A DNA stretch of 35,104 nt from Prochlorococcus sp. AG-418-F08 (GTDB taxonomy: Bacteria; Cyanobacteriota; Cyanobacteriia; PCC-6307; Cyanobiaceae), in NCBI GenBank assembly GCA_003214295.1, contig QCLV01000013.1:1-35104 (forward strand), in the 5' to 3' direction. Of this stretch, positions 1 through 35,104 are shown piece by piece. Position 1 is the stretch's first letter. Every line of letters starts with the position of its first letter. The translations under genes were made by a program, and so were the position numbers. The notes beneath the pieces are model-generated. The model was not told the DNA's origin and searched no databases. It saw only the letters and a program-made list of their open reading frames with translations.

Positions 1-369
1 ATCCTCAAATTTTGCCTGGACTATATTTACTTCTGACATTGGAATACCTTTCCATAATTTCTTACTTTTCCAATTTACCAATATTAAAGCTTCTTCTTTT
101 TCTTTATCCCAATATAATTGTCTCCCCAAAAAACCATTTTGAGAAGATAACCACGGATCCCAAATCTCTTTTTCAGCATTCAACCATGCCGCTTTTGCGT
201 CTGCAGGGACTTTAAGTCTTAATTCTTCAATAACCATTTCACCTTGATAATTATCCATAGGAAGAGCTTTTAAATTAGGTATATCAGATTGAAAAATTAA
301 AACTACTAAGCAAATTAATAATAAACAAAATCTTTGAATTTTTTTTTTCAAATTTAAATTAAATTTCAT
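1..369 (-). CDS. TIGR03792-like cyanobacterial protein, 3' end cut by the window edge
   Basis: The frame starts at an ATG whose bases overlap the TGA stop of the trmD-ispF frame (ATGA overlap), and stays open for 123 codons to the window edge, so the C-terminus is missing. Residues about 10-28 are a hydrophobic segment after a lysine-rich start, which fits a signal peptide or membrane anchor. The rest has evenly spaced tryptophans (motifs such as EIWDPWL, LYWDK, VNWKS) typical of the uncharacterised cyanobacterial TIGR03792 family, which I recognise by memory of its pattern only. The function is unknown. The overlap suggests translation coupled to the upstream frame. Confidence 0.6.
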
Positions 370-1586
370 TTTTTCTCAAGAAGAACTACTGAATGGCAAC
401 TTATACCCTCTTCTCTCCCCTCTGGACCTAATTTTTCATTCGTGGTTGCTTTAATCCCAATTAAATTTTCATCAATATTTAAGATTTCAGAAATGTTTTT
501 TTTCATTAGTTTTATATGAGGCATGATTTTTGGCCTTTCTGCAACAAGAACACTATCAATATTATTTATTTCCCAACCATCTTGTCTGATCAAGTCAATT
601 ACTTTTGATAACAAAAACAAGCTATCTGCATTTTTCCATTTTTCATCAGATGGGGGGAAATACTTTCCTATGTCGCCAAGCGAAAGTGCTCCCAATAATG
701 CATCCATTATTGAGTGACTTAAAACATCAGCATCACTATGACCATCCAATCCTAAATTTTCAGGATGATGCAATTTTACACCTCCAATTATTAAATCTCT
801 ATCCTCTACTAGTCTGTGAATATCGTATCCATTACCTATTCTAAATTTCATGAATTGATTATTTTCTTTTATTATTCTCTTACTTTGTGGGGATTTTTTG
901 TAGTTTTCATTTGAAATTAAGTCACTTCTTCTCTCCAATGTTCTTTCAAAACTTTTTCTTCTTCTCCACGATTTAATCTCTTCATGATTACCGCTCACTA
1001 AAATATCTGGCACTTTCATATCTTTAAAAGTTAACGGCCTCGTGTATTGAGGATACTCTAATAAAGAAGAATTATGACTCTCATCGACTAAGGAGTCTGG
1101 ATCACCAAGAGTTCCTGGTAATAATCTAGTCAAACCGTTAATTATTGATATAGCGGGTATTTCACCTCCAGAAAGTACATAATCGCCTATCGATACCTCT
1201 TCATCAGCTAAACATCTAATCCTTTCATCAAAACCTTCATATTGACCACAAATAATTATTATTTGATCCAAAGTGGACCATCTCGCAAGATCCTTTTGCT
1301 TTAGGACTTTACCCTGTGGGCTCATCAGCAAAGTTTTACTTTTAGGTAATTTTCTAATTGATTCATATGCCTTATAAATAGGTTCAGGTTTTAATACCAT
1401 ACCTGCTCCTCCTCCATAAGGCTTATCGTCTACCTGTCTGTAAGAACCTTCTCCATATTCTCTCAAATCATGTAAATTTACATCGATCAAATTCTTATCT
1501 AGGGCTTTTGTGATGACCCCTAAATTATTTATTGATTCAAAAGCTTTAGGGAACAATGTAATTACATCAAAATTAAAACCACTCAT
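366..1586 (-). CDS. trmD-ispF: Fused tRNA (guanine37-N1) methyltransferase TrmD and MECDP synthase IspF
   Basis: One 406-codon frame holds two enzymes. Residues 1 to about 230 are TrmD, which methylates G37 of tRNAs using S-adenosylmethionine; the YGGGAGMV (57-64), [10 protein letters not shown] and [11 protein letters not shown] motifs form its cofactor-binding trefoil knot. Residues 246-406 are IspF, which cyclises CDP-methylerythritol phosphate in the plastid-type isoprenoid pathway; D255, H257 and H291 match the metal-binding DxH and downstream His of the family. A lysine-rich linker of about 15 residues joins them. There is no stop between the parts, but M246 is a natural IspF start, so a separate IspF could also be made by internal initiation. 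The era stop codon directly abuts this start (TAGATG), so the two genes form an operon. Each domain is of normal family length. Confidence 0.92.
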
Positions 1587-2498
1587 CTAGAAATCTTCCT
1601 CATAACCAAACTCAATTAACCTTGATTCTTTTTTTCTCCAATTTGGAACAACTTTCACAAACAACTCTAGGTGAACTGGACCATCAATTAATTTTGACAT
1701 ATTTGATCTTGCTGTCTGACCAATCATTTTTAACATTGAACCTTTCTTTCCAATAAGAATGCCTTTTTGAGTTGATCTTTCAACAATAATAGTAGCCAAA
1801 ATAGCTGTAAAAACTTTGCCATTTTTTCTTTTCATTTCCTCTCTTTTTTCTATCTTTACTGCAACACTATGAGGGACTTCTTCCCTTGTATTTATTAATA
1901 CCTGCTCTCTTACTAAATCAGATAATAAGTTATCTAATGGTTGATCACAAATAGTCTCTTCACCATAAAGTTTTGGTCCTTCTGGAAGAAAATTAAGTGC
2001 CATATCAACTAGTTCAGAACATCCTTCTCCTTTAGAGGCACTTACAATTTGAAAGTTTCTATTAATTCCGAAAAATCTTCTATATTGATCTAATCGTACA
2101 TTCCTAAATTCTTTATCAACTAAATCCCACTTATTTAATGCAACAATAAACTCAGTTTTATTTGCTATTAAAAAGTTCAAAATATATTCATCGCCTCTAC
2201 CTGGTTCTTCACTTGAATCAATTACAAAAATTACCATATCAACTCCATTAATTGCAGATTTTGCGTTTTTTACTAATATCTCTCCAAGTCGATGATGAGG
2301 TTTATGAACACCTGGCGTATCAACAAAAATTATTTGCCCATTGTCTTTAGTCAGTATTCCTTTTAATTTATTTCTAGTAGTTTGCGCTATTGGAGAAGTG
2401 ATTGTTATTTTTTCTCCAATCAATTTATTTATTAAAGTAGATTTACCGACATTTGGCCTTCCTAGTAAAGTTACGAACCCAGATTTATAATTGGCCAA
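1587..2498 (-). CDS. era: GTPase Era
   Basis: Era is a GTP-binding protein that binds the 3' end of 16S rRNA and helps mature the small ribosomal subunit. The 303-residue product has the full set of GTPase motifs: GRPNVGKS (13-20), the TT switch I region near 40, DTPG (60-63), NKWD (122-125) and a SASKG guanine-specificity loop. The C-terminal third is a KH RNA-binding domain with the sequence ILIGKKGSMLKMIG. Length is normal. The gene is immediately followed by trmD-ispF with no spacer and is divergent from a small hypothetical gene 38 bases away, so its promoter must lie in or next to that short gap. Nothing is missing from the motifs. Confidence 0.97.
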   Translation of the reverse strand: MANYKSGFVTLLGRPNVGKSTLINKLIGEKITITSPIAQTTRNKLKGILTKDNGQIIFVDTPGVHKPHHRLGEILVKNAKSAINGVDMVIFVIDSSEEPGRGDEYILNFLIANKTEFIVALNKWDLVDKEFRNVRLDQYRRFFGINRNFQIVSASKGEGCSELVDMALNFLPEGPKLYGEETICDQPLDNLLSDLVREQVLINTREEVPHSVAVKIEKREEMKRKNGKVFTAILATIIVERSTQKGILIGKKGSMLKMIGQTARSNMSKLIDGPVHLELFVKVVPNWRKKESRLIEFGYEEDF

Positions 2499-2536
2499 GG
2501 ACTTTTAATACATCAATAATAAAATTCTGATCAAAA

Positions 2537-3064
2537 ATGAAAAAAAAAACCATAAATTTAAAAGAAGCTTCGTTCACGCAAGCAATAAACATATCCGCAC
2601 AATGGTGCAAAGAGTGGGGTGAAGATTTACTCAGTGAAGAGGTTTTAGCAGATAGAATCGCAGAGCTAACTAAAACAAGAAATGGACTCAGAGGATTTTT
2701 TGCATACGCTTTATCAGATAAAGATTGTTTTTTGTTAGATAAACTTCCTTTTTCACTAATTTACAAACTGAACGAAGGTGGGGATGCTGTAACAGACATA
2801 GTATTAAAAAATTTAATAATGAGTTCCGCTCAAATTATTATTCATCGAAGAGATAATAATAATGAATATGAGATAACATCGGAAAACATTTCAGATAGAT
2901 GTAAGGCTATTTTAAGACTGCTAGAAACTAAGTCAGTTACAAAGTCTGTCAATCAAGTCCTTAGAGACTTAGATGATATGGGCAACAGTTTTGATAATTC
3001 AGTAAAGTATGACTCAGAGCAAAAGGAATTTATAAAAAAACAAATTCTTGATATCGCTCAATAA
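2537..3064 (+). CDS. Conserved-looking hypothetical protein, 175 aa
   Basis: I do not recognise a family. The product is soluble and mixed-charge, with no signal peptide or clear membrane segment. An N-terminal stretch (about 18-45, with WCKEWGEDLLSEEVLADRI) and a middle part (LDKLPFSLIYKLNEGG, about 68-83) look like folded helical sequence. The gene stands alone on the plus strand, divergent from era and convergent with the Bax-inhibitor-type gene. It starts at an ATG followed by a run of lysine codons, with no good ribosome-binding site, and ends just before a strong hairpin. Codon use resembles the neighbours, so it is probably a real resident gene. Role unknown. Confidence 0.75.
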   Translation: MKKKTINLKEASFTQAINISAQWCKEWGEDLLSEEVLADRIAELTKTRNGLRGFFAYALSDKDCFLLDKLPFSLIYKLNEGGDAVTDIVLKNLIMSSAQIIIHRRDNNNEYEITSENISDRCKAILRLLETKSVTKSVNQVLRDLDDMGNSFDNSVKYDSEQKEFIKKQILDIAQ

Positions 3065-3065
3065 A

Positions 3066-3091
3066 AAAGCGTAGAAATAAATCTACGCTTT
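3066..3091. terminator. Bidirectional intrinsic terminator between two convergent genes
   Basis: A perfect 10-bp stem (AAAGCGTAGA at 3066-3075 and TCTACGCTTT at 3082-3091) closes a 6-base loop. It begins right after the stop of the hypothetical plus-strand gene. Read on the minus strand, as an extension of the Bax-inhibitor-type gene, the stem is followed by a T run, so it is a better terminator in that direction. It is the clearest hairpin terminator I found in the window. Confidence 0.85.
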
Positions 3092-3113
3092 AGGTTAGAA
3101 AATTAAATAATGC

Positions 3114-3851
3114 TTAGTCTCTTCTTCCGCCACCTTGAAGTGCAATCATTAATCTCAATATAAAAACAAAAAGATTTATATAAGTTAGATACATACCCAA
3201 TGCCCCTGCAAGATATTGATCATCACTGTATCTTCTTGGCATTGTATAGAAATCCACGAAAGACATTGCAACAAACAAGACGGTTCCAAATCCCGCAATT
3301 ATCAATTCAAGGCCTGATCCTCCAAAAACTCCTGGGGCAAAGAATCCTCCAATTATTTGGACAAACATTGCGATAAGAAGACCTATCAAACCAAGACCAA
3401 CAACACCGCTTAGTGCCTGACCAACGCTATCACTCATTCTCTGGCCTGTGTAAGACGCAATAACGAAAGTTATACCAGTAGCCAAAGCAGCTGTTCCAAC
3501 AGAACCAATACCAATAGTTCCTATTGCTAGAGCAACTATTCCACTTAATGTGAATCCAGTTAACAAACTAAATCCTGTAAGTAAAGGCAAAGCCTTTGAA
3601 TTATTTGCATTATTTGCAGCATTAGTTGCTATAAAAAACAAAACCAATTCCGCAATTAAAGCAACTATCGAGAGAGGCTGAAACAGTCCAGGGTTTGTTG
3701 CTATAAGTGAGACTCCTGCTAAAACACCTAAAGAAGTTAGTACCATACCTCCACCAACGTAAGGTAGAGCCTTTTGAACAACATTTGGTCCAACAATTGA
3801 ACTAGTTTGTGCTTCACGAATAGCTTGATTGAAATTACTACTTGCTGGCAT
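3114..3851 (-). CDS. Bax inhibitor-1 / YccA family membrane protein
   Basis: The 245-residue product is almost entirely hydrophobic, with about seven predicted membrane spans after a hydrophilic N-terminus of roughly 25 residues. The general pattern fits the bacterial Bax-inhibitor-1 family: glycine-rich spans, a conserved region around FVDFYTMPRRYSDDQYLAGALG, cut here to its ending YLAGALGMYLTYINLF, and a last membrane span. Family members are pH-sensitive calcium-leak channels or modulators of membrane proteases; the substrate here is unknown. It lies downstream of phoH in the same direction, after 74 bases, and ends at a shared terminator. The ATG start at the chosen position leaves the family-typical short N-terminal tail. 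Confidence 0.88.
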   Translation of the reverse strand: MPASSNFNQAIREAQTSSIVGPNVVQKALPYVGGGMVLTSLGVLAGVSLIATNPGLFQPLSIVALIAELVLFFIATNAANNANNSKALPLLTGFSLLTGFTLSGIVALAIGTIGIGSVGTAALATGITFVIASYTGQRMSDSVGQALSGVVGLGLIGLLIAMFVQIIGGFFAPGVFGGSGLELIIAGFGTVLFVAMSFVDFYTMPRRYSDDQYLAGALGMYLTYINLFVFILRLMIALQGGGRRD

Positions 3852-3925
3852 TTTCTTTTTTTAAATATGATTTTATTCTACTCGATTTTTAAAATTTCAG
3901 GGTACGGATCTCCAGAGTTTTAAAG

Positions 3926-4882
3926 TTATTGATAAGCCTCAATAATTTTCTGGACTAAAGGATGACGAACCACATCTTCAATAGTTAAATAACAAAATTT
4001 TATACCTTGAGTTTCAGAGAAAAGTCTAGATGCTTCAATGAGGCCACTTTCCTGGTCTTTTTTTAAATCAATTTGTGTAATATCTCCGTTTACAACCATT
4101 TTTGATCTGTCTCCTAATCTGGTCAAAAACATTCTCATTTGAGTGCAAGTAGTGTTTTGTGCTTCATCTAGAATAACCATAGAATTTTCTAAAGTTCTGC
4201 CTCTCATAAATGCTAGAGGAGCAACTTCAACAATTCCCTTATCGATTAACGAATTAGTTCTATCAAATCCAAAAATACTATGCAAAGAATCAAATATTGG
4301 TCTTAAGTATGGATCAACTTTTTGTTGCAAATCTCCAGGGAGGAATCCTAGACTTTCTCCAGCTTCTACGGCTGGTCTGGTTAAAACAATTTTATCTATT
4401 TTTTTCTCATTCAACAGTCTCGCTGCGCAAACAGTTGCTAAAAATGTCTTTCCAGTTCCAGCGGGACCAATTGCGAACGTAAGATCAAAATTTTCAATTG
4501 ATTCAACATATTCTTTTTGCCTTATAGTTCTTGGCCTCAAATATCTTCCTTCTTTTGAACGCGCAAGAACCTTTTTCCCAAGTTCAGCATGTGACGATGA
4601 GTCTCCCATATTTAGAGAACTTAAAGCCGCTTTAAGATCTACCTCTGGGACTTCTAAGCCTTGTTCCCAAATTGGCCTTGTTAGTTCTACTAAGGCTGAG
4701 GCTCTTTCAATCTTAGACATAACACCATTCATCTCAAGTTGTAGGCCTCTTATGGTTAAAGAAACTCCTGTTAAAGACTCAAACTTTTTTAAAAAGGAAT
4801 TACCTGGGCCAGATAGTGCTGTAGCAGCATCAGAGCTAGGCAAATCTATTGTGAAGTGACCAGTTTTGGAAACTTCCTTCAT
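3926..4882 (-). CDS. phoH: PhoH-like ATPase
   Basis: The 318-residue protein is a PhoH-family P-loop ATPase, often linked to RNA handling or phosphate stress; its exact cellular role in cyanobacteria is not settled. Walker A is GPAGTGKT (139-146) and Walker B is MVILDEAQN (235-243). An N-terminal region of about 115 residues with a KH-like pattern (FLKKFESLTGVSLTIRG) precedes the ATPase core, and the motif NGDITQIDL follows it, as in the family. It is read in the same direction as rpsP, 36 bases downstream of it, which suggests cotranscription with ribosomal and export genes. Length and motifs are normal. Confidence 0.94.
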   Translation of the reverse strand: MKEVSKTGHFTIDLPSSDAATALSGPGNSFLKKFESLTGVSLTIRGLQLEMNGVMSKIERASALVELTRPIWEQGLEVPEVDLKAALSSLNMGDSSSHAELGKKVLARSKEGRYLRPRTIRQKEYVESIENFDLTFAIGPAGTGKTFLATVCAARLLNEKKIDKIVLTRPAVEAGESLGFLPGDLQQKVDPYLRPIFDSLHSIFGFDRTNSLIDKGIVEVAPLAFMRGRTLENSMVILDEAQNTTCTQMRMFLTRLGDRSKMVVNGDITQIDLKKDQESGLIEASRLFSETQGIKFCYLTIEDVVRHPLVQKIIEAYQ

Positions 4883-4918
4883 ATAGTTTTTTTATAAGAA
4901 TAGAAATTAATCAAAGCA

Positions 4919-5284
4919 CTAGCTTTCAGCTTCATTAACCTCACTTTCAGCTTTACTACTATCATTTTCTTCGTCTTTGGTTTTAGCCTTAGCTAATTTT
5001 TCCTTCTCTAATTTTGCCTTACCAATTGCAATAGAAGGTCTTTCTATTTTTTCTAGTAAGCCTCCCTTTTCTAATAAAGTTCTCACAACATCAGTTGGCT
5101 GAGCACCCTGATTAAGTCTTGTTCTTAGAGCTTCCGTATCAAGCCTGGTTTCTTTAGTTCTCGGGTTATAAAAACCTAGTTCTTGCAGAGGTCTACCATC
5201 TCTTCTGGAAGTACTATTGCATGCAACAATTCTGAAACTTGCCTCTTTTTTCTTTCCAAAGCGCTTAAGGCGCAATTTAATCAT
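4919..5284 (-). CDS. rpsP: 30S ribosomal protein S16
   Basis: S16 is a small-subunit protein needed for assembly of the 30S body. The N-terminal 80 residues are the complete S16 domain: the start [20 protein letters not shown], the [15 protein letters not shown] motif and the [13 protein letters not shown] ending. Residues about 85-121 form a charged, low-complexity tail rich in Lys, Glu and Ala, which is longer than in E. coli but common in cyanobacterial S16. It lies between ffh (upstream, 53 bases) and phoH, all read on the minus strand. Confidence 0.97.
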
Positions 5285-5337
5285 CTTAAATCAGTGCGTT
5301 TTAATAATAATATCATTTAAAGGTAAAAATATAGAAA

Positions 5338-6795
5338 TTATAAATCTGCAAAACCTTTTTTCTTTTTATTATTTTTTTGTTTTTTCATTGGTTTATTATT
5401 ATTCATTCCTGGCATTCCCCCCATTCCTGGCATTCCCCCCATTCCTGGCATTCCTCCCATTCCTGGCATTCCTCCCATTCCTGGCATTCCTCCATTCGAC
5501 ATTTGTTTCATAAAACCTCTCATTCTTTGAAAATCAGCTAATACTTTATCTACATCTTTTGCTTCATAACCACTACCCTGAGCAATCCTTTGTCTTCTTG
5601 AAGGCTGAGCAGCAAGAACTTCAGGTTTTTGTTTCTCCTCAAGAGTCATTGATGAGATCATAGATTCTATTTTCTTAAGTTGATCTTCTCCATCTTTTAT
5701 CATCCCATCGTCAATTTTATTCATTCCAGGTATTAATTTTATTAATCCACCAAGTGAGCCCATCCTTTTTATTAATCTCATTTGCTTAACAAAATCATTA
5801 AAGTCAAAAGTTGCTTCTTGAAGTTTCTTTTGCATAGCTTCTGCATCAGCAAGCTCGACTTCCTTTTGAGCTTTTTCAACAAGTGTTAAAACATCACCCA
5901 TTCCTAAAATTCGGCTAGCCATTCTCTCTGGATGGAATGGTTGCAGTGCCTCTATTTTTTCACCTACACCAATGAATTTGATAGGTTTACCACTTATTTT
6001 TCTTATTGATAAAGCAGCACCTCCTCTAGAGTCACCATCCAACTTAGTTAATATCGCTCCCGATATCCCTACTTTTTCATGGAACGACTTTGTTAAGTCA
6101 GCAGCTTCTTGTCCAATCATAGAATCAACAACAAGTAAAACTTCATCAGGATTAGAAACTTCTTTTATCCGAACCATTTCAGTCATCATTGAATCATCAA
6201 TTTGCAATCTTCCTGCAGTGTCAATAATGATTGAATTAAAATTATTTTCACTCGCATAACTCAATGCGTGCTTTGTTATCTCTTCTGGTTTGCTATTTTT
6301 TTCTTTCGCCGAAAAAACTTCTAAGTCGTATTGACTTCCTAATGTTTTAAGTTGTTCAACAGCCGCTGGTCGATAAATATCCGCAGCCACCAAAAGAACT
6401 TTTTTTTCTTTTCCTTTCAAATAAAGCCCTAATTTTCCTGTTGCAGTTGTTTTACCAGCCCCCTGAAGTCCAGCCATTAAAATAACAGTGGGACCACTTT
6501 CATTCTCTTTTAATGGAGAATTTTCATTCCCCATAATGTTAATCAATTCTCTATTAACAACTTCTATAAATTTTTGACTTGGGTTTACACCCCTAACTAC
6601 CTCTTCTCCGATGGCTTTATCTTTAACATCTGATATAAACTCCTTTACTACAGATAAACTTACATCAGCATCAAGAAGTGCTCTTTTAACCTGATTCAAG
6701 GCATCATTTATATTATTTTCACTAATTTTTGCTTCGCCTCTTAAACCTTTTACTGCGTCTTCAAAGCGTGATGAAAGTTCATCAAACATTATCAA
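5338..6795 (-). CDS. ffh: Signal recognition particle protein Ffh, intact copy
   Basis: Ffh binds 4.5S RNA and signal sequences and delivers nascent membrane proteins to FtsY. The product has an N-terminal helical bundle, a GTPase domain (GLQGAGKTT at 109-117, DTAGR at 192-196, TKLDGD at 250-255) and a C-terminal M domain from about 320, containing [10 protein letters not shown]. The tail carries five Gly-Gly-Met-Pro-Gly-Met units before a lysine-rich end. The frame can open at a TTG (485 aa), but the ATG two codons later gives the family-like start MFDELSSRF, so I prefer 6789 as the start. It lies downstream of the ARC6 gene in the same direction. The C-terminal part, from residue 337, is repeated in the right arm of the inverted repeat. 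Confidence 0.96.
   Translation of the reverse strand: MIMFDELSSRFEDAVKGLRGEAKISENNINDALNQVKRALLDADVSLSVVKEFISDVKDKAIGEEVVRGVNPSQKFIEVVNRELINIMGNENSPLKENESGPTVILMAGLQGAGKTTATGKLGLYLKGKEKKVLLVAADIYRPAAVEQLKTLGSQYDLEVFSAKEKNSKPEEITKHALSYASENNFNSIIIDTAGRLQIDDSMMTEMVRIKEVSNPDEVLLVVDSMIGQEAADLTKSFHEKVGISGAILTKLDGDSRGGAALSIRKISGKPIKFIGVGEKIEALQPFHPERMASRILGMGDVLTLVEKAQKEVELADAEAMQKKLQEATFDFNDFVKQMRLIKRMGSLGGLIKLIPGMNKIDDGMIKDGEDQLKKIESMISSMTLEEKQKPEVLAAQPSRRQRIAQGSGYEAKDVDKVLADFQRMRGFMKQMSNGGMPGMGGMPGMGGMPGMGGMPGMGGMPGMNNNKPMKKQKNNKKKKGFADL
5405..5494 (-). repeat. Five tandem 18-bp units inside ffh
   Basis: The 18-base unit ATTCCTGGCATTCCCCCC (plus-strand sense) occurs five times in a row. Units 3 and 4 differ by one C-to-T change; unit 5 carries it too and also ends in A. 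It encodes the methionine-rich hexapeptide repeat GGMPGM in the M-domain tail of Ffh. The near identity of the units suggests recent expansion or contraction by slippage. Confidence 0.93.
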
Positions 6796-6836
6796 AAAGT
6801 AATTTTAATTATTATAGATGATCTAGAAGTTAATAC

Positions 6837-8936
6837 CTAGAGGCCACTTACAAAATCAACTAATTTCCATTTTTTGTTAGAAAAACCCAGAATATATTTA
6901 ACTTTCAGCGGAGTCAATGATGTTTCATTAACAAGTTCTCCAGAATTATTTATTATTTTCTCTAAGTAATTTAGTTCAGCTAAAACAGCGATTCTAGAGG
7001 AGGTTTGTGATTCCAGATCTATCTTAAGTATTTGAGAATTAATTTCTTTATAAATTCCTTTCTTTATATCATTTTGTCTTTCTTCTATTGTTCTATCGAT
7101 TAAACTATTGCCGACAATCTTCGAGAGATTAATTTCACTCTTACCAGATAAGTAATTACTTTTAGTTTGAAGCCATGTATTAATCAAATTTGTTATCTCT
7201 TCTAAAGAAGGAGAGGCTGTAGTAATTTCTATTTCTTTAAGGGCTTTTTTTAAAGTTAGATCTTCATCATTAGAATTCAATTCATTTAATGGTTTCTTTT
7301 TGATTTCTTGAAAAGTATTTTTATCACTATCCTTTTGATTTTTATCAATAACTATAAGCGGTTTTTTAGTAACAGTTTTTTCCTGAATTGATTCTTTAAA
7401 ATTATTTTTTAAAAAACCCAAACCAATACCAAATGAAAATAAGATTAAAAATGCATATATGTAAAATCTATAAGTTGACCGACCGGTAAACTCTTTATCC
7501 TTCAAGAACTCTCCAAAATTAAACTTTAGTTCAGCAATTTTTTCAATTAGATATTTATAAAAATCTATTGATTTATTCTTAAAGATTTCCTCATTGAATT
7601 TATTTTCTTGGATATCAGGTTTTTCATATTCTTGTTTTATGCCACCTGGCCAAGGTAATTTTTTATCGTTATTTTCAGATGTATTATCAAAATCTTCAAT
7701 AATTATCGAAGATTCTTTATTGATGTTTTTGTTTTGAAGACTTGATTTAATTGTTATTTTATTAGATTTCTTTTCTAATTTTTCAATAAATTCTTGAATT
7801 TCTCTATCTTCAAACCAAGAGTCTAAGTCCACTTCTTTTGATTCAATATCTCTATAACCAACTAATACATCATTCTCTAACCAATTTTTACAGAAAATAC
7901 ATATCGCTTCTAACTTATTCCCTGGAAAATTATTAAGCCAATCTCGTAGTTTTTCATCAGAACTACTCAAAAACCTTGCAGAAGCCTGATCAACATCAGC
8001 TAAAAGCAAGTCTAAACAACCAGCAAGAGGCATTGAATCAAGACCTGATAAATTCAGTTTCCTTAAAATTCTCTTTGCTTCAAATAATTTCTCAGGCTTT
8101 CTTCTTGAAAACCCAATTGCTGTTAAGGATAGAAAAGCTAAAAATCCTGCCTCTAGTGAACCTCTCTTTTGTAATTCAAGAAATAAATCTATCTGTTCTT
8201 GTACTGTCAAATATGGCTTTATTTGTTGAAAAAAAGCTTCGAATTCTTGTTGATTCAGATAATTTCCATATTCAGATTTATTATTACCTTCTAAACCTCC
8301 TCTTTTAATTATTAAATTTTCCAGCATACTCAAACCTTTTTTATGAGAGTCCTGATCTTTTAAGTCCCTACTAACTAGATCTAAAATTCTGTAAGGAAGC
8401 AGCGCAATCAAATCTTCTTCAAGTTCTTTCCTTTTTTCGCTCAACTTTCCCATTCTTTGAAGAAGTTGTATACCCTCCTGTAAAAAGTCAGCGGCGTTTG
8501 AATAAAATCTAAGCTGTTGTTCTTGAATGGCGGAGTCTCTAGCAGTTAAAGCCGCCAATAAAGTTAGATCGGCTTCTCTACTACTTCCTAAAGCTGGTGT
8601 TTGCGGGGGCTGCAAAGCTTTTATCGCTATTTTAAAAGCTTCTTTTGGAGAACCAGATTCCCAAAGAAGTAGTAGTCCTGCGACTTCTCTATTTGAAGAA
8701 AAATCTAACCCAGAGGATCCATCTAGTAGCAAATTTTCATATTCTCTTCTGCTATCTGGGTCTGTGAGTAAATCAGCAGTGAGGCGAAGCAATTCTGATC
8801 TTTGAGTTAGAACTTCATATGTAAAACCTTCATCTGGAGTTTTATCCAATCGTAATTGAAACGCCCTTAATATTTCCTCCGATGTTGCAGAGGGGCTTAC
8901 TCCAATTAAGCGAAAATGATCTAAAGGAAGTTCCAA
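6837..8936 (-). CDS. ftn2: ARC6/Ftn2 (ZipN) cell division protein
   Basis: The 699-residue protein matches the cyanobacterial division factor called Ftn2, ZipN or ARC6, which tethers FtsZ to the inner membrane at the division site. Evidence is the order of parts: an N-terminal J-like domain (about 1-70, DHFRLIGVSPSATSEEILRA, ending in DPDSRREYE), a long helical region with LLLAALTARDSAI and related repeats, a charged linker, one membrane span near residues 490-510 (FYIYAFLILFSFGIGLGFL), and a C-terminal domain of about 110 residues resembling the ARC6 intermembrane-space-type domain (LINTWLQTKSNYLSG through KWKLVDF). The J-like domain lacks the HPD motif, as is usual for this family. It lies upstream of ffh in the same direction and is divergent from pdhA. 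Confidence 0.92.
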   Translation of the reverse strand: MELPLDHFRLIGVSPSATSEEILRAFQLRLDKTPDEGFTYEVLTQRSELLRLTADLLTDPDSRREYENLLLDGSSGLDFSSNREVAGLLLLWESGSPKEAFKIAIKALQPPQTPALGSSREADLTLLAALTARDSAIQEQQLRFYSNAADFLQEGIQLLQRMGKLSEKRKELEEDLIALLPYRILDLVSRDLKDQDSHKKGLSMLENLIIKRGGLEGNNKSEYGNYLNQQEFEAFFQQIKPYLTVQEQIDLFLELQKRGSLEAGFLAFLSLTAIGFSRRKPEKLFEAKRILRKLNLSGLDSMPLAGCLDLLLADVDQASARFLSSSDEKLRDWLNNFPGNKLEAICIFCKNWLENDVLVGYRDIESKEVDLDSWFEDREIQEFIEKLEKKSNKITIKSSLQNKNINKESSIIIEDFDNTSENNDKKLPWPGGIKQEYEKPDIQENKFNEEIFKNKSIDFYKYLIEKIAELKFNFGEFLKDKEFTGRSTYRFYIYAFLILFSFGIGLGFLKNNFKESIQEKTVTKKPLIVIDKNQKDSDKNTFQEIKKKPLNELNSNDEDLTLKKALKEIEITTASPSLEEITNLINTWLQTKSNYLSGKSEINLSKIVGNSLIDRTIEERQNDIKKGIYKEINSQILKIDLESQTSSRIAVLAELNYLEKIINNSGELVNETSLTPLKVKYILGFSNKKWKLVDFVSGL

Positions 8937-9084
8937 GCAAATATCCTATTGAAATTTCTTAGACAAATTTTATCAATTTAAAAATTTTTTTCATAAGGTC
9001 TTATAGAGTTTTAAAAAAAAATCATGAAAATCGACCTTCACGGCTTAGAATGTTAACAAATCAAAACTTCATTAAGGTATTTTC

Positions 9085-10122
9085 TTGGAAACACACGTAG
9101 AGAGAATCTCAAATCTTCAAGAGATAAAAAAAGCCGAATTAAATCGAGAAACCGGATTATTTCTTTTTGAAGATATGACACTTGGCCGAAGGTTCGAAGA
9201 TAAATGTGCAGAAATGTACTACAGAGGCAAAATGTTCGGTTTCGTTCATTTATATAACGGTCAAGAGGCTATTAGCACTGGTGTAATTGGAGCCATGAAA
9301 AAGAAACATGATTGGTTTTGTAGTACCTACCGCGACCATGTCCATGCACTAAGTGCAGGTGTTCCATCTTTTGAAGTAATGAGTGAGCTTTTTGGTAAAG
9401 CTACAGGTTGTAGTAAAGGCAGAGGGGGTTCAATGCATTTATTTTCAAGAGAACATCATTTATTGGGAGGATATGCATTTATTGGTGAGGGAATTCCAGT
9501 AGCTTTAGGAGCTGCTTTTTCAAGTAAGTACAAAAAAGAAGTCGCTAGTGATAACAATAGTGATGCAGTAACTGCAGCATTCTTTGGAGATGGAACTTGT
9601 AATAACGGACAGTTTTTTGAATGTTTAAATATGGCTCAATTGTGGAAATTGCCGATAATTTTTGTTGTTGAGAATAACAAATGGGCTATTGGCATGGCTC
9701 ACGATAGAGCAACAAGCAATCCTGAAATTTGGAGAAAAGCTTCCGCTTTTGGGATGCATGGAGAGGAAGTTGATGGGATGGATGTATTGGCTGTAAGAGG
9801 AGCAGCACAAAGAGCAATTGAGCGCGCAAGAGCAGGAGAAGGGCCAACACTTTTAGAATGCCTGACCTATAGATTTAGAGGACATTCTCTTGCAGATCCT
9901 GACGAATTAAGATCTGAGAAAGAGAAGGAGTTTTGGGGGGAAAGAGATCCTATAAAGAAATTAGCAAAAGAATTGATTGATAATAAATTTGCGACGGAAG
10001 ACGAATTAAAGGGTATTGAAAAGAAAATAGATAATGAAATATCCGAGTCAGTTAAAAATGCTCTAGAAGCACCCGAACCTCCCTCACAAGAATTAACAAA
10101 ATATATTTGGGCAGAAGATTAG
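9085..10122 (+). CDS. pdhA: Pyruvate dehydrogenase E1 component, alpha subunit
   Basis: This subunit carries the thiamine-diphosphate site of the enzyme that decarboxylates pyruvate and starts acetyl-CoA formation. The cofactor motif begins with GDG (168-170) and ends with ENNKW (196-200); the phosphorylation-loop-like region with [12 protein letters not shown] is also present. Length (345 aa) is normal. The start is a TTG, chosen because AAGG sits seven bases upstream and an earlier in-frame start is not available. It is monocistronic and convergent with the sigma factor gene with one base between the stops. The E3 subunit gene lpd is elsewhere in this window; E1-beta and E2 are not here. 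Confidence 0.96.
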
Positions 10123-13974: not shown

Positions 13975-15455
13975 TTTTCCAAAAGATATTTAATCCCATA
14001 AATAATATAAACAAAAACAAAATAGGTTTATCTCCAAATTTTGTATAGAAAGTCTTTTCGGATGAAAAATTAGGGAACACTATTTCATTTTGCTCAACAT
14101 CATAATCTAAAAGTTTAATTATTTTCCCATCATCTTGAACTAAGCCCGAAGGGCCCGTATTTGATACTAGTAAATTATTTTTCTTATTTTCAATACTTCT
14201 CAATCTAGCCAAAGATAGGAATTGATTATAAAGCTTAGCTGGATATGGATCTAAATTTGCTGCAGTTATTATTAGTTTTGCACCGCTATTAATAGCCTTT
14301 CTTATTTCTAGTCCATCACTAATTTCGTAACATATAGCTACTGCTAGTGGGGGTGTAAATTTAGGATCAAAAAATCGTGAATCATAGCCTGGTTGAATTC
14401 CTCCTACTGCAGATAATCCTCTTGAAAAACTATCTAGAAATCTAGGTATTTTTTCACCTATTGGAACAAGTCTATTTTTATCTATAAATGAGGTAAAAGA
14501 TTTATCTCCAATTTGAAATCCGAGTAAAGAACTTCTTAACTCATTATTTGAATTTCTGAAACCTCCTGATAAGGTATTAACCTTAATGCCTTTAGAAAAA
14601 TAAAAATTATTAGATAGAGTTCCTTCAGGAGCAACAAGAAGTTTCGCTTTGTTTGATAAGGCATATTTTTGAGCGATAGATAGCTTTTCTTCAATAAATT
14701 CATCATTTATTTTTAATTTTTCTCTTGTTGGTATATTAGTTTGCCAAATCGCTACTGGATATTCATTATTTCCTTTTATTGGAGATTTTAAACCTCCAAA
14801 TAAATGTAAGAAAATAAACAACAAAAGTCCTAAAAGAAATATTTTTTTAAAGTAAAGTTTTCTTTCCCATCTACCTTGAATATAAAAAAATCCAAAATCC
14901 AATCAATATTTGTAATACGCATAAACCACTTGCACCAATCCATTTTGCTAAACCAGCAAGATAAATATCACCTGGAATAAGACTTTCTCCTAAACCTATC
15001 CAAAAAAAAGGTGTTTGAGAAAGTATCATTTCACCAATACCCCAAGTCAAAGATAAAAAAAATACTTTTACTGTTAAAGATAATATTTTCATTTTGAAAA
15101 CATCCTCTTTCCAGAGAATAATTTCAACTAACAAACCCCATAAATAAACTAATATCCCACCCAAAAAAGCGCAAAATATTAATATCAAAGTGGCAATAAT
15201 TAAACTTGCAAGCCATGAAAAACCTAGCCAACTTAGTGGGTGAAGATCATAAAGCCAAGAATGACTTATCAAGATAAAGAAAAAACCCCAACAAAAATTT
15301 GCTGTTCTCCTTTCACTTCCCTTCCATAAAATAAATAATGATATCGGCATAAAAATCAGCCAAAAATGAGTTGAGACTGAAATTCCTCCTAAAATCCCTC
15401 CCAAACCAGGGTAAAAATATTGTCTTAGACTTTTAATTTGAGTTGGGATTAACAA
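13967..15455 (-). pseudogene. lnt: Apolipoprotein N-acyltransferase, split by a frameshift
   Basis: Lnt adds the third acyl chain to lipoproteins in the inner membrane. Two overlapping frames together make one normal-length protein: a 194-codon N-terminal membrane part (14871-15455, TTG start) and a 311-codon part (13967-14902) with a last membrane segment and the nitrilase-type catalytic domain. In the second part the triad is present: E93 (VAPEGTLS), K142 (DKNRLVPIGE) and C191 (AICYEISDG). The break is at a run of seven A (plus strand 14884-14890); with six, the sequence reads through as IGFWIFYIQGRWER. So this is a one-base insertion: a real mutation, a sequencing error, or a slippage site. 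All catalytic parts survive, which argues for an error or a recent event. Confidence 0.88.
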
Positions 15456-15541
15456 TCTAAAATTACGAAATTAAATTTATAATCACCCATTTATTGTACC
15501 TTCATTCTGTAGACTAGGTATTAGTCACTTTCAAAATTTAA

Positions 15542-16114: not shown

Positions 16115-16192
16115 ATTAAGTTAGAAAAATATTTAAGACTTTTCAATTTAGTTAATCTCCAAGTAATATATGTACAACACTAAATATTTGAA

Positions 16193-18640: not shown

Positions 18641-18652
18641 TTATTTTAGATA

Positions 18653-28296: not shown

Positions 28297-28369
28297 GCGG
28301 GCGTCGCCAAGTGGTTAAGGCAGCGGCTTGTGGCGCCGCTATTCGGGGGTTCGAATCCCCTCGCTCGCC
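28297..28369 (+). tRNA. tRNA-His (GTG)
   Basis: Acceptor GCGGGCG pairs with CGCTCGC at 28362-28368 with one G-T pair. The discriminator is C, and the base before the acceptor is G, giving the G-1:C73 pair unique to tRNA-His. The anticodon stem GCGGC/GCCGC encloses TTGTGGC, giving anticodon GTG. The CCA end is not encoded. It stands between the amidohydrolase (divergent) and miaB. Confidence 0.97.
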
Positions 28370-28441
28370 CTCAAGAAAATTGCAGCAAAATTTTTTAACT
28401 TGTAATTTTGAATTAAAGAATCATAAAAAATTTCTAGCAAA

Positions 28442-29767
28442 GTGCTAACAAAAACAAAACCAGACGAAAAAAAATTTCGAAAGAATTCAACTACTAGCAG
28501 TTATTGGATAACAACATTTGGATGCCAAATGAACAAGGCTGATTCTGAGAGAATGGCTGGTACATTAGAGAAAATGGGATACACCAAAGCAGATAATGAG
28601 TTAGATGCCGATTTGGTCTTATACAACACATGCACCATTAGAGATAATGCAGAGCAGAAAGTTTATAGCTTTCTAGGAAGACAAGCAAAAAGGAAGCACA
28701 ATACACCCAGCCTGAAACTCGTTGTGGCAGGTTGTCTCGCCCAGCAGGAGGGGGAGTCCTTACTAAGAAGAGTTCCAGAACTTGATTTAGTAATGGGGCC
28801 TCAGCATGTAAATAACCTTGAGAATCTTCTAGGAAAAGTTGACTTAGGAAATCAAGTTGCTGCCACAGAAGAGACCTTCATTTCTGAAGATATAACAAGT
28901 GCTAGGAGAGAAAGTTCTATTTGTGGCTGGGTTAATATAATTTATGGATGTAATGAAAAATGTTCATATTGTGTAGTTCCCTCTGTAAGGGGGAAAGAGC
29001 AATCAAGATATCCAAATGCGATAAAAAGTGAGATACAAAAATTAGCTGATGATAATTTTAAAGAAATTACTCTTTTGGGTCAGAATATTGACGCTTATGG
29101 TAGAGATCTTCCAGGAACTACAAAAGAGGGGAGAAAAGAAAATACTCTAACTGATCTTTTATATTATATTCATGATGTTCAAGGAATTCGCAGAATAAGA
29201 TTTGCTACTAGTCATCCAAGATATTTTTCAAAAAGGTTGATTCAAGCTTGTTATGAACTTGAAAAAGTCTGTGAACATTTCCATATTCCCTTCCAAAGTG
29301 GAAATGATGAAATCTTAAAGCAAATGAGATTAATAAAAAGGATGGGCTCACTTGGTGGATTAATAAAATTAATACCTGGAATGAATAAAATTGACGATGG
29401 GATGATAAAAGATGGAGAAGATCAACTTAAGAAAATAGAATCTATGATCTCATCAATGACTCTTGAGGAGAAACAAAAACCTGAAGTTCTTGCTGCTCAG
29501 CCTTCAAGAAGACAAAGGATTGCTCAGGGTAGTGGTTATGAAGCAAAAGATGTAGATAAAGTATTAGCTGATTTTCAAAGAATGAGAGGTTTTATGAAAC
29601 AAATGTCGAATGGAGGAATGCCAGGAATGGGAGGAATGCCAGGAATGGGAGGAATGCCAGGAATGGGGGGAATGCCAGGAATGGGGGGAATGCCAGGAAT
29701 GAATAATAATAAACCAATGAAAAAACAAAAAAATAATAAAAAGAAAAAAGGTTTTGCAGATTTATAA
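28442..29767 (+). CDS. miaB: MiaB 5' part joined in frame to the 3' end of ffh
   Basis: MiaB is a radical-SAM enzyme that adds a methylthio group to isopentenyl-adenosine 37 of tRNAs. Residues 1-292 are MiaB: the N-terminal domain starts [13 protein letters not shown], with further cluster cysteines in YNTCTIRD and VVAGCLAQ, and the SAM cluster motif CNEKCSYC. From residue 293 (29318) the sequence is Ffh from its K337 onward, through KQMR, and ends with the ffh stop. The MiaB radical-SAM domain end and TRAM domain are missing. The native gene should run on beyond this point. The start is GTG. The joined reading frame is a product of the junction, not a credible natural protein. Confidence 0.93.
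29318..29767 (+). pseudogene. ffh: 3' fragment of ffh (M domain), residues 337-485
   Basis: These 149 codons plus stop are identical to the end of the intact ffh in the left arm. It has lost the N and GTPase domains and has no start of its own, being read only as the tail of the truncated miaB. It retains the [10 protein letters not shown] motif and the GGMPGM repeats. As a separate protein it would not function in signal recognition. Confidence 0.94.
29611..29700 (+). repeat. Second copy of the five 18-bp ffh units
   Basis: The mirror of the repeat in the left arm, with the same number of units and the same variant bases. Tandem repeats normally change copy number quickly, so the identity of the two tracts supports a very recent or technical duplication. 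Confidence 0.93.
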
Positions 29768-29820
29768 TTTCTATATTTTTACCTTTAAATGATATTATTA
29801 TTAAAACGCACTGATTTAAG

Positions 29821-30186
29821 ATGATTAAATTGCGCCTTAAGCGCTTTGGAAAGAAAAAAGAGGCAAGTTTCAGAATTGTTGCATGCAATAGTACTTCCAG
29901 AAGAGATGGTAGACCTCTGCAAGAACTAGGTTTTTATAACCCGAGAACTAAAGAAACCAGGCTTGATACGGAAGCTCTAAGAACAAGACTTAATCAGGGT
30001 GCTCAGCCAACTGATGTTGTGAGAACTTTATTAGAAAAGGGAGGCTTACTAGAAAAAATAGAAAGACCTTCTATTGCAATTGGTAAGGCAAAATTAGAGA
30101 AGGAAAAATTAGCTAAGGCTAAAACCAAAGACGAAGAAAATGATAGTAGTAAAGCTGAAAGTGAGGTTAATGAAGCTGAAAGCTAG
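29821..30186 (+). CDS. rpsP: 30S ribosomal protein S16, inverted-repeat copy
   Basis: Identical in all 121 residues to the left-arm S16, including the charged C-terminal tail. A second S16 gene would be unusual in a small streamlined genome, and this one follows a broken ffh instead of an intact one. I regard it as the mirrored copy of a single gene. Confidence 0.9.
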
Positions 30187-30222
30187 TGCTTTGATTAATT
30201 TCTATTCTTATAAAAAAACTAT

Positions 30223-31179
30223 ATGAAGGAAGTTTCCAAAACTGGTCACTTCACAATAGATTTGCCTAGCTCTGATGCTGCTACAGCACTATCTGGCCCA
30301 GGTAATTCCTTTTTAAAAAAGTTTGAGTCTTTAACAGGAGTTTCTTTAACCATAAGAGGCCTACAACTTGAGATGAATGGTGTTATGTCTAAGATTGAAA
30401 GAGCCTCAGCCTTAGTAGAACTAACAAGGCCAATTTGGGAACAAGGCTTAGAAGTCCCAGAGGTAGATCTTAAAGCGGCTTTAAGTTCTCTAAATATGGG
30501 AGACTCATCGTCACATGCTGAACTTGGGAAAAAGGTTCTTGCGCGTTCAAAAGAAGGAAGATATTTGAGGCCAAGAACTATAAGGCAAAAAGAATATGTT
30601 GAATCAATTGAAAATTTTGATCTTACGTTCGCAATTGGTCCCGCTGGAACTGGAAAGACATTTTTAGCAACTGTTTGCGCAGCGAGACTGTTGAATGAGA
30701 AAAAAATAGATAAAATTGTTTTAACCAGACCAGCCGTAGAAGCTGGAGAAAGTCTAGGATTCCTCCCTGGAGATTTGCAACAAAAAGTTGATCCATACTT
30801 AAGACCAATATTTGATTCTTTGCATAGTATTTTTGGATTTGATAGAACTAATTCGTTAATCGATAAGGGAATTGTTGAAGTTGCTCCTCTAGCATTTATG
30901 AGAGGCAGAACTTTAGAAAATTCTATGGTTATTCTAGATGAAGCACAAAACACTACTTGCACTCAAATGAGAATGTTTTTGACCAGATTAGGAGACAGAT
31001 CAAAAATGGTTGTAAACGGAGATATTACACAAATTGATTTAAAAAAAGACCAGGAAAGTGGCCTCATTGAAGCATCTAGACTTTTCTCTGAAACTCAAGG
31101 TATAAAATTTTGTTATTTAACTATTGAAGATGTGGTTCGTCATCCTTTAGTCCAGAAAATTATTGAGGCTTATCAATAA
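30223..31179 (+). CDS. phoH: PhoH-like ATPase, inverted-repeat copy
   Basis: Identical in all 318 residues to the left-arm PhoH, with the same Walker A and B motifs. The spacing to rpsP and to the next gene is also unchanged. Complete as a gene, but probably a mirrored copy of one locus. Confidence 0.9.
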   Translation: MKEVSKTGHFTIDLPSSDAATALSGPGNSFLKKFESLTGVSLTIRGLQLEMNGVMSKIERASALVELTRPIWEQGLEVPEVDLKAALSSLNMGDSSSHAELGKKVLARSKEGRYLRPRTIRQKEYVESIENFDLTFAIGPAGTGKTFLATVCAARLLNEKKIDKIVLTRPAVEAGESLGFLPGDLQQKVDPYLRPIFDSLHSIFGFDRTNSLIDKGIVEVAPLAFMRGRTLENSMVILDEAQNTTCTQMRMFLTRLGDRSKMVVNGDITQIDLKKDQESGLIEASRLFSETQGIKFCYLTIEDVVRHPLVQKIIEAYQ

Positions 31180-31253
31180 CTTTAAAACTCTGGAGATCCG
31201 TACCCTGAAATTTTAAAAATCGAGTAGAATAAAATCATATTTAAAAAAAGAAA

Positions 31254-31991
31254 ATGCCAGCAAGTAGTAATTTCAATCAAGCTATTCGTGAAGCACAAAC
31301 TAGTTCAATTGTTGGACCAAATGTTGTTCAAAAGGCTCTACCTTACGTTGGTGGAGGTATGGTACTAACTTCTTTAGGTGTTTTAGCAGGAGTCTCACTT
31401 ATAGCAACAAACCCTGGACTGTTTCAGCCTCTCTCGATAGTTGCTTTAATTGCGGAATTGGTTTTGTTTTTTATAGCAACTAATGCTGCAAATAATGCAA
31501 ATAATTCAAAGGCTTTGCCTTTACTTACAGGATTTAGTTTGTTAACTGGATTCACATTAAGTGGAATAGTTGCTCTAGCAATAGGAACTATTGGTATTGG
31601 TTCTGTTGGAACAGCTGCTTTGGCTACTGGTATAACTTTCGTTATTGCGTCTTACACAGGCCAGAGAATGAGTGATAGCGTTGGTCAGGCACTAAGCGGT
31701 GTTGTTGGTCTTGGTTTGATAGGTCTTCTTATCGCAATGTTTGTCCAAATAATTGGAGGATTCTTTGCCCCAGGAGTTTTTGGAGGATCAGGCCTTGAAT
31801 TGATAATTGCGGGATTTGGAACCGTCTTGTTTGTTGCAATGTCTTTCGTGGATTTCTATACAATGCCAAGAAGATACAGTGATGATCAATATCTTGCAGG
31901 GGCATTGGGTATGTATCTAACTTATATAAATCTTTTTGTTTTTATATTGAGATTAATGATTGCACTTCAAGGTGGCGGAAGAAGAGACTAA
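31254..31991 (+). CDS. Bax inhibitor-1 family protein, inverted-repeat copy
   Basis: Identical in all 245 residues to the left-arm copy, with about seven membrane spans. It ends before the mirrored terminator, here read in its better direction, with the stem followed by a T run. Confidence 0.86.
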   Translation: MPASSNFNQAIREAQTSSIVGPNVVQKALPYVGGGMVLTSLGVLAGVSLIATNPGLFQPLSIVALIAELVLFFIATNAANNANNSKALPLLTGFSLLTGFTLSGIVALAIGTIGIGSVGTAALATGITFVIASYTGQRMSDSVGQALSGVVGLGLIGLLIAMFVQIIGGFFAPGVFGGSGLELIIAGFGTVLFVAMSFVDFYTMPRRYSDDQYLAGALGMYLTYINLFVFILRLMIALQGGGRRD

Positions 31992-32013
31992 GCATTATTT
32001 AATTTTCTAACCT

Positions 32014-32039
32014 AAAGCGTAGATTTATTTCTACGCTTT
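32014..32039. terminator. Bidirectional terminator, inverted-repeat copy
   Basis: Same 10-bp stem and 6-base loop as in the left arm, between the mirrored Bax-inhibitor-type gene and the hypothetical gene. On the plus strand it is followed by TTTTTTAT, so it serves the Bax-inhibitor-type gene best. Confidence 0.85.
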
Positions 32040-32040
32040 T

Positions 32041-32568
32041 TTATTGAGCGATATCAAGAATTTGTTTTTTTATAAATTCCTTTTGCTCTGAGTCATACTT
32101 TACTGAATTATCAAAACTGTTGCCCATATCATCTAAGTCTCTAAGGACTTGATTGACAGACTTTGTAACTGACTTAGTTTCTAGCAGTCTTAAAATAGCC
32201 TTACATCTATCTGAAATGTTTTCCGATGTTATCTCATATTCATTATTATTATCTCTTCGATGAATAATAATTTGAGCGGAACTCATTATTAAATTTTTTA
32301 ATACTATGTCTGTTACAGCATCCCCACCTTCGTTCAGTTTGTAAATTAGTGAAAAAGGAAGTTTATCTAACAAAAAACAATCTTTATCTGATAAAGCGTA
32401 TGCAAAAAATCCTCTGAGTCCATTTCTTGTTTTAGTTAGCTCTGCGATTCTATCTGCTAAAACCTCTTCACTGAGTAAATCTTCACCCCACTCTTTGCAC
32501 CATTGTGCGGATATGTTTATTGCTTGCGTGAACGAAGCTTCTTTTAAATTTATGGTTTTTTTTTTCAT
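32041..32568 (-). CDS. Hypothetical protein, 175 aa, inverted-repeat copy
   Basis: Identical to the left-arm hypothetical protein. No family recognised; same divergent position next to era. Confidence 0.73.
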   Translation of the reverse strand: MKKKTINLKEASFTQAINISAQWCKEWGEDLLSEEVLADRIAELTKTRNGLRGFFAYALSDKDCFLLDKLPFSLIYKLNEGGDAVTDIVLKNLIMSSAQIIIHRRDNNNEYEITSENISDRCKAILRLLETKSVTKSVNQVLRDLDDMGNSFDNSVKYDSEQKEFIKKQILDIAQ

Positions 32569-32606
32569 TTTTGATCAGAATTTTATTATTGATGTATTAA
32601 AAGTCC

Positions 32607-33518
32607 TTGGCCAATTATAAATCTGGGTTCGTAACTTTACTAGGAAGGCCAAATGTCGGTAAATCTACTTTAATAAATAAATTGATTGGAGAAAAAATAA
32701 CAATCACTTCTCCAATAGCGCAAACTACTAGAAATAAATTAAAAGGAATACTGACTAAAGACAATGGGCAAATAATTTTTGTTGATACGCCAGGTGTTCA
32801 TAAACCTCATCATCGACTTGGAGAGATATTAGTAAAAAACGCAAAATCTGCAATTAATGGAGTTGATATGGTAATTTTTGTAATTGATTCAAGTGAAGAA
32901 CCAGGTAGAGGCGATGAATATATTTTGAACTTTTTAATAGCAAATAAAACTGAGTTTATTGTTGCATTAAATAAGTGGGATTTAGTTGATAAAGAATTTA
33001 GGAATGTACGATTAGATCAATATAGAAGATTTTTCGGAATTAATAGAAACTTTCAAATTGTAAGTGCCTCTAAAGGAGAAGGATGTTCTGAACTAGTTGA
33101 TATGGCACTTAATTTTCTTCCAGAAGGACCAAAACTTTATGGTGAAGAGACTATTTGTGATCAACCATTAGATAACTTATTATCTGATTTAGTAAGAGAG
33201 CAGGTATTAATAAATACAAGGGAAGAAGTCCCTCATAGTGTTGCAGTAAAGATAGAAAAAAGAGAGGAAATGAAAAGAAAAAATGGCAAAGTTTTTACAG
33301 CTATTTTGGCTACTATTATTGTTGAAAGATCAACTCAAAAAGGCATTCTTATTGGAAAGAAAGGTTCAATGTTAAAAATGATTGGTCAGACAGCAAGATC
33401 AAATATGTCAAAATTAATTGATGGTCCAGTTCACCTAGAGTTGTTTGTGAAAGTTGTTCCAAATTGGAGAAAAAAAGAATCAAGGTTAATTGAGTTTGGT
33501 TATGAGGAAGATTTCTAG
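32607..33518 (+). CDS. era: GTPase Era, inverted-repeat copy
   Basis: Identical in all 303 residues to the left-arm Era, with intact GTPase motifs and KH domain. Era is a dosage-sensitive housekeeping protein normally encoded once, which again points to a mirrored copy. Confidence 0.91.
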   Translation: MANYKSGFVTLLGRPNVGKSTLINKLIGEKITITSPIAQTTRNKLKGILTKDNGQIIFVDTPGVHKPHHRLGEILVKNAKSAINGVDMVIFVIDSSEEPGRGDEYILNFLIANKTEFIVALNKWDLVDKEFRNVRLDQYRRFFGINRNFQIVSASKGEGCSELVDMALNFLPEGPKLYGEETICDQPLDNLLSDLVREQVLINTREEVPHSVAVKIEKREEMKRKNGKVFTAILATIIVERSTQKGILIGKKGSMLKMIGQTARSNMSKLIDGPVHLELFVKVVPNWRKKESRLIEFGYEEDF

Positions 33519-34739
33519 ATGAGTGGTTTTAATTTTGATGTAATTACATTGTTCCCTAAAGCTTTTGAATCAATAAATAATTTAGGGGTCATCACAAAAG
33601 CCCTAGATAAGAATTTGATCGATGTAAATTTACATGATTTGAGAGAATATGGAGAAGGTTCTTACAGACAGGTAGACGATAAGCCTTATGGAGGAGGAGC
33701 AGGTATGGTATTAAAACCTGAACCTATTTATAAGGCATATGAATCAATTAGAAAATTACCTAAAAGTAAAACTTTGCTGATGAGCCCACAGGGTAAAGTC
33801 CTAAAGCAAAAGGATCTTGCGAGATGGTCCACTTTGGATCAAATAATAATTATTTGTGGTCAATATGAAGGTTTTGATGAAAGGATTAGATGTTTAGCTG
33901 ATGAAGAGGTATCGATAGGCGATTATGTACTTTCTGGAGGTGAAATACCCGCTATATCAATAATTAACGGTTTGACTAGATTATTACCAGGAACTCTTGG
34001 TGATCCAGACTCCTTAGTCGATGAGAGTCATAATTCTTCTTTATTAGAGTATCCTCAATACACGAGGCCGTTAACTTTTAAAGATATGAAAGTGCCAGAT
34101 ATTTTAGTGAGCGGTAATCATGAAGAGATTAAATCGTGGAGAAGAAGAAAAAGTTTTGAAAGAACATTGGAGAGAAGAAGTGACTTAATTTCAAATGAAA
34201 ACTACAAAAAATCCCCACAAAGTAAGAGAATAATAAAAGAAAATAATCAATTCATGAAATTTAGAATAGGTAATGGATACGATATTCACAGACTAGTAGA
34301 GGATAGAGATTTAATAATTGGAGGTGTAAAATTGCATCATCCTGAAAATTTAGGATTGGATGGTCATAGTGATGCTGATGTTTTAAGTCACTCAATAATG
34401 GATGCATTATTGGGAGCACTTTCGCTTGGCGACATAGGAAAGTATTTCCCCCCATCTGATGAAAAATGGAAAAATGCAGATAGCTTGTTTTTGTTATCAA
34501 AAGTAATTGACTTGATCAGACAAGATGGTTGGGAAATAAATAATATTGATAGTGTTCTTGTTGCAGAAAGGCCAAAAATCATGCCTCATATAAAACTAAT
34601 GAAAAAAAACATTTCTGAAATCTTAAATATTGATGAAAATTTAATTGGGATTAAAGCAACCACGAATGAAAAATTAGGTCCAGAGGGGAGAGAAGAGGGT
34701 ATAAGTTGCCATTCAGTAGTTCTTCTTGAGAAAAAATGA
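33519..34739 (+). CDS. trmD-ispF: Fused TrmD-IspF frame, inverted-repeat copy
   Basis: Identical in all 406 residues to the left-arm frame, with the internal ATG (34254) at codon 246 where IspF would begin. Because both arms may derive from the same reads, this second occurrence is not independent proof that the fusion is real. Confidence 0.88.
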
Positions 34740-35104
34740 AATTTAATTTAAATTTGAAAAAAAAAATTCAAAGATTTTGTTTATTATTAATTTGCTTAGT
34801 AGTTTTAATTTTTCAATCTGATATACCTAATTTAAAAGCTCTTCCTATGGATAATTATCAAGGTGAAATGGTTATTGAAGAATTAAGACTTAAAGTCCCT
34901 GCAGACGCAAAAGCGGCATGGTTGAATGCTGAAAAAGAGATTTGGGATCCGTGGTTATCTTCTCAAAATGGTTTTTTGGGGAGACAATTATATTGGGATA
35001 AAGAAAAAGAAGAAGCTTTAATATTGGTAAATTGGAAAAGTAAGAAATTATGGAAAGGTATTCCAATGTCAGAAGTAAATATAGTCCAGGCAAAATTTGA
35101 GGAT
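34736..35104 (+). CDS. TIGR03792-like protein, partial, inverted-repeat copy
   Basis: The same 123 codons as at the left edge, again cut at the same base by the window end. Starts in an ATGA overlap with the IspF stop. Confidence 0.58.

Follow-up and report, generated by a model that had tools for sequence, protein, structure and literature searches.

Does a contig that begins and ends with the same sequence in opposite orientations record an inverted duplication in the chromosome, or did the repeat arise while the DNA was amplified and assembled? The window analyzed here, a stretch of 35,104 bases, is the whole of contig C13 of a Prochlorococcus-type assembly, and therefore both arms of its repeat finish at contig ends. 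When the window was compared with its own reverse complement from base 1, bases 1 to 5787 and 29318 to 35104 were exact reverse complements over 5787 bases, and beyond this match only 66 of the next 200 bases agreed. A chance origin is excluded at such a length. These data confirm the perfect 5787-bp terminal inverted repeat that a sequence-only reading of this DNA had claimed, and its statement that the two arms share one end base was borne out by the contig ends. The ORF list and the family matches also upheld the content that had been claimed for the arms, seven doubled ORFs plus the end of ffh, and the tandem repeat was indeed doubled with them. The features are as follows (window coordinates, strand in brackets).

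1-5787 (+): left arm, taken as the natural copy; runs into the core through ffh
5788-29317 (+): unique core of 23,530 bp; in the parts compared, colinear with relative G004
29318-35104 (-): right arm, probably an artefact that repeats the left arm, finishing at the contig end
1-369 (-), copy 34736-35104 (+): gene of the TIGR03792 family, truncated at the contig edge (ORF and family match)
366-1586 (-), copy 33519-34739 (+): fused trmD-ispF ORF, 406 aa (ORF and family match)
1587-2498 (-), copy 32607-33518 (+): era (ORF and family match)
2537-3064 (+), copy 32041-32568 (-): 175-aa ORF without NCBIfam or Pfam match
3114-3851 (-), copy 31254-31991 (+): Bax1-I family gene (ORF and family match)
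3926-4882 (-), copy 30223-31179 (+): PhoH-like gene, match below the NCBIfam curated cut-off
4919-5284 (-), copy 29821-30186 (+): rpsP (ORF and family match)
5338-6795 (-): intact ffh, 485 aa, spanning the left junction; its 3' end alone is doubled in the right arm
5404-5497 (+), again at 29608-29701: tandem repeat inside ffh, 18-bp unit, 5.3 copies
5779-5787 (-): nine-base ffh sequence bordering the natural left junction, matching AAGCAAATG of the right junction
28442-29767 (+): fused miaB-ffh ORF, 441 aa, probably artefactual; about 292 aa from the front of MiaB, then the tail of Ffh
29309-29326 (+): putative chimeric junction, miaB up to 29317, then inverted ffh
29318-29326 (+): the nine bases AAGCAAATG of ffh, which miaB also has in 15 of 29 relatives

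The assembly comprises 1,323,692 bases in 40 contigs, of which the shortest has 2,022 bp, and is 81% complete. Since it has this number of contigs, this completeness and this shortest contig, and since many of the named relatives carry names of single-cell style, we infer that the source was a single amplified genome, the DNA of which would have been amplified with phi29 polymerase. The shortest contig resembles the rule of keeping contigs of >2,000 bp that is stated in PMC6122165. The best named matches to the Ffh of the window, among the best 80 of 147 loci, were from Prochlorococcus, with an identity of about 95%. Searches of the assembly covered 35 of the 40 contigs, the other five reading entirely as N in the fetched stretches, and in the searchable part the only further match to the arm was 62 bp at 77%.

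The left junction has the arrangement of the relatives

Window bases 1 to 9000 were searched in the own genome and in 40 other genomes of the genus, sampled evenly across a larger set, and the counts for the left junction and the arm were taken by eye from the alignment table. Positions 5787/5788 were spanned by one alignment block in 33 of the 40 relatives, five of which (G007, G008, G025, G034, and G036) had only the last 250 to 465 bases of the arm in that block. No spanning block was found in the remaining seven (G002, G011, G013, G014, G019, G028, and G035). Because ffh is intact with 485 aa and 33 of the 40 relatives span the position, the left junction is, by sequence comparison, natural and the usual arrangement of the relatives. 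A doubled part of the arm, that is, two long matches to one arm region, was seen in none of the 40 relatives, although in seven of them (G002, G008, G013, G014, G019, G028, and G035) under half of the arm was matched.

The right junction is confined to one assembly

At the right junction, miaB is broken at 29317 and reads on in frame into the end of ffh on the opposite strand. The relevant part of miaB was present in 100 of 120 relatives, and the 29 best-scoring ones were fetched for comparison. In all 29, miaB runs on normally past the junction, and its agreement with the ffh sequence extends over at most 9 bases. The nine junction bases in miaB were AAGCAAATG, exactly as in ffh, in 15 of the 29, AAACAAATG in 13, and AAGCAGATG in 1; the nine-base homology at the join is thus deduced from relatives, the own miaB end being unassembled, and is imperfect in 14 of 29. 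Matches of at least 9 bases to the start of the arm are rare in the core, with only 2 among 47,060 positions on both strands. The joined points in miaB and ffh lie 23.5 kb apart.

At the protein level, the pattern of the miaB-ffh junction occurred in 1 of 266 genomes of the genus, which was the own genome, and a search of the genome_contigs collection, which may omit the own record, gave no match to it. Judged by the relatives, the right junction belongs to this assembly alone and is foreign to the real chromosome. Gene order in related genomes had been named beforehand as a check, and it gave the following outcome: the left junction is the usual one, and the right junction is found only in the own assembly.

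The contig lies once in ordinary order, and its outer flanks are missing

On the relative G004, the contig maps once, to C2:209289-238624, in consecutive blocks and in order. The own contig C24 ends at 201070 and the own contig C3 begins at 245953 on the same relative, leaving gaps of about 8.2 and 7.3 kb. Since C24 and C3 flank it there, the contig is present once and in ordinary order. A 6.1-kb stretch of the relative G038 leading out of miaB and an 8.0-kb stretch of G038 leading to the outer end of the arm were then used as queries, and neither the continuation of miaB nor the sequence outside the arm was found in the readable contigs of the own assembly; beyond miaB and the arm themselves, these searches returned only a 40-bp match at 85%.

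No terminal inverted repeat was present in any of the 34 other readable contigs; for the larger contigs, the scan took in the two ends only, with 6 kb or slightly less per side. Within this scope, the defect occurs a single time in the assembly. Five contigs that seemed equal to their own reverse complement were rejected, all of them reading entirely as N. The end of C16, the start of C23, and ends of C25 and C33 carry many common, diverged repeats of up to 260 bp with about 76 to 100% identity, which may derive from one or several large repetitive genes at which the assembly was interrupted.

Probable origin of the repeat by a fold-back chimera

We consider it highly probable (about 0.92), on the sequence comparisons above, that the inverted repeat is an artefact of amplification and assembly, namely, a chimera of the inverted (fold-back) type that phi29 polymerase produces during multiple displacement amplification (MDA). 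The sequence-only reading had preferred a fold-back chimera or a double use of one set of reads over a genuine duplication, and this preference is supported by the private right junction, the nine-base match, the missing flanks, and the single-copy placement. We would refine it in one respect, in that both readings would hold together: the molecule would be chimeric at 29317/29318, and the assembler would in addition have used the arm twice. A displaced 3' end that halted in miaB at AAGCAAATG would have paired with CATTTGCTT, its complement in ffh (the roles of miaB and ffh may also have been reversed), and the paired end would then have been extended along the arm. The chimeric molecule would have been amplified, and the true continuation of miaB would have been lost from coverage. 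The assembler, holding a single arm with an outer dead end that was joined to both ends of the core, would have written the arm twice, and an arm written twice gives identical arms, an identical tandem repeat, and a common end base. Assemblers work with k-mers of 21 or more, and because the nine-base match is far shorter than these, a real chimeric molecule would be needed.

Such events have been described. MDA chimeras arise when a displaced 3' end pairs with a short matching sequence on another strand and is then extended. In PMC1855051 (Lasken and Stockwell 2007), 406 of 475 chimeras were inverted, and more than 70% of the junctions had a homology of 2 to 21 nt. Of the inverted chimeras reported there, 337 of 406 spanned less than 10 kb, and above 10 kb homology was present in only 34.8%. 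A later study, as far as its available passages go, places the peak of chimera overlap at 6 nt (PMC4595205). Like the inverted chimeras of PMC1855051, the window joins two sites of one genome, the second segment inverted, at a short common sequence that falls, by the relatives, within 2 to 21 nt, and by the relatives its junction is absent from the chromosome. Unlike most of them, the joined points are not within 10 kb, a distance that is usual and not required, and the window comes from an assembled contig rather than from reads.

Chimeras have also been found in Prochlorococcus itself: in the accessible passages of PMC2731171, two single-cell libraries had about 1 chimera per 10 kb, and each assembly contained seven chimeric contigs. 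As in the window, those contigs linked non-contiguous Prochlorococcus regions; that study, in the same passages, had a reference genome and reads and used other sequencing and another assembler, and the passages describe no terminal inverted repeats. For single-cell Escherichia coli assemblies, the portion of PMC5794965 consulted gives 59 ± 9 misassembled contigs before cleaning.

Counting against a chimera are the distance of 23.5 kb, together with the share of only 34.8% with homology above 10 kb, the deduction of the homology from relatives and its imperfection in 14 of 29, and the lack of a terminal repeat in the 34 other readable contigs as scanned. Template switching in vivo can likewise use short homology.

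Alternative origins of the repeat

If the repeat were instead a genuine, very recent inverted duplication, at least 5.8 kb with era, trmD-ispF, rpsP, and other loci would have been copied in inverted orientation into miaB, destroying it; microhomology-mediated template switching inside the cell is one conceivable route, and the cell would have been sampled before the copy diverged or was lost. Identical arms are what a fresh copy should have, the nine-base match at the join is compatible with template switching in vivo, and the absence of the outer flanks from the assembly leaves room for a second flank; in a contig, such an event would be indistinguishable from a chimera. Set against this are the lack of the junction in all 265 other genomes of the genus and the lack of a doubled arm in the 40 relatives, seven of which show under half of it; presence in relatives would support a duplication but is not required of a recent event. 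Two flanks might also be expected to link the outer end of the arm to other contigs, but BLAST, with matches of at least 40 bp considered, showed none between the arm and the end of any other readable contig. We regard a genuine duplication as very unlikely; if it were true, it would be a fresh inverted duplication in a streamlined lineage with no such duplication in the genomes searched.

Still less probable is a ligation or PCR chimera from library preparation, or a purely computational mis-join, in place of MDA. Mis-joins by assemblers are possible, but the nine-base common sequence, as judged by relatives, is too short to confuse an assembler at the usual k-mer sizes. Chimeras formed by ligation require no common sequence and arise only rarely at any given position, so one of them should not dominate an assembly. 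That ligation-based library preparation can yield inverted-repeat chimeras is reported in PMC13141652. Least credible is an invertible segment, where the sequenced DNA would hold the core in either orientation and the contig would mix both, of which an arm joined to both ends of the core is a possible outcome: the inverted form would break miaB and ffh, the two core ends have at most 9 bases in common by the relatives, and the miaB-ffh junction of that form is absent from the 265 other genomes of the genus.

A second inverted repeat in AH-716-K03

Inverted repeats of at least 100 bp with at least 95% identity were sought in 89 loci (9 relatives and 80 named loci, mostly parts of contigs). Only one locus, L130 on NODE_7 of Prochlorococcus sp. 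AH-716-K03, exceeded this threshold. Its arms are exact, 1,376 bp long, and lie at 14757-16132 and 17824-19199, and one of them finishes at the contig end. In the four relatives whose alignments were compared (L113, L117, L121, and L125), the segment that follows the other arm aligns in reverse orientation, and at the join the two aligned sides share 0 to 3 nt. By this comparison, the repeat in AH-716-K03 is probably a chimera too. Like the window, L130 has a perfect inverted repeat with one arm at a contig end and an arrangement that is contradicted by the relatives compared; unlike the window, its arms are only 1,376 bp long around a loop of 1,691 bp, the other arm is internal to the contig, and the overlap at the join is 0 to 3 nt.

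Variation at trmD-ispF and near ffh

Among 74 loci with a match to trmD-ispF, a count that takes in L083, L015, and others, the two genes formed one frame without a stop in 41 and one frame with one stop in 1; in 32, some of them cut by contig ends or divergence, the match was not in one block. Many of these split loci have 0.6 to 4.5 kb of other DNA between trmD and ispF. In L083, the insert opens with a 505-aa ORF that has a weak Phage_integrase match below the Pfam cut-off, and the peptide FRIGNGYD of the start of ispF is present at both ends of the insert. The integrase-like ORF and the repeated peptide suggest that integration may occur where ispF starts, which is unproven because the exact common DNA at the insert ends was only 6 to 10 nt in the 19 loci checked. 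In contig C17 of the relative G007, about 3.9 kb of extra sequence (5298-9234) lies between the rpsP side and ffh, possibly a second variable site of the region.

Implications

Contigs of this type burden public genomes with false duplicates and false gene fusions; in the present case these are the extra copies of era, trmD-ispF, rpsP, and further loci on the one hand and the fused miaB-ffh ORF on the other. They can be flagged without reads, by a perfect inverted repeat that reaches the contig end together with a junction that is private to one assembly and located at a short common sequence. The repeat of the window is most probably a commonplace amplification artefact, and its value lies chiefly in the warning that it gives and in the simple rule for screening that it offers.
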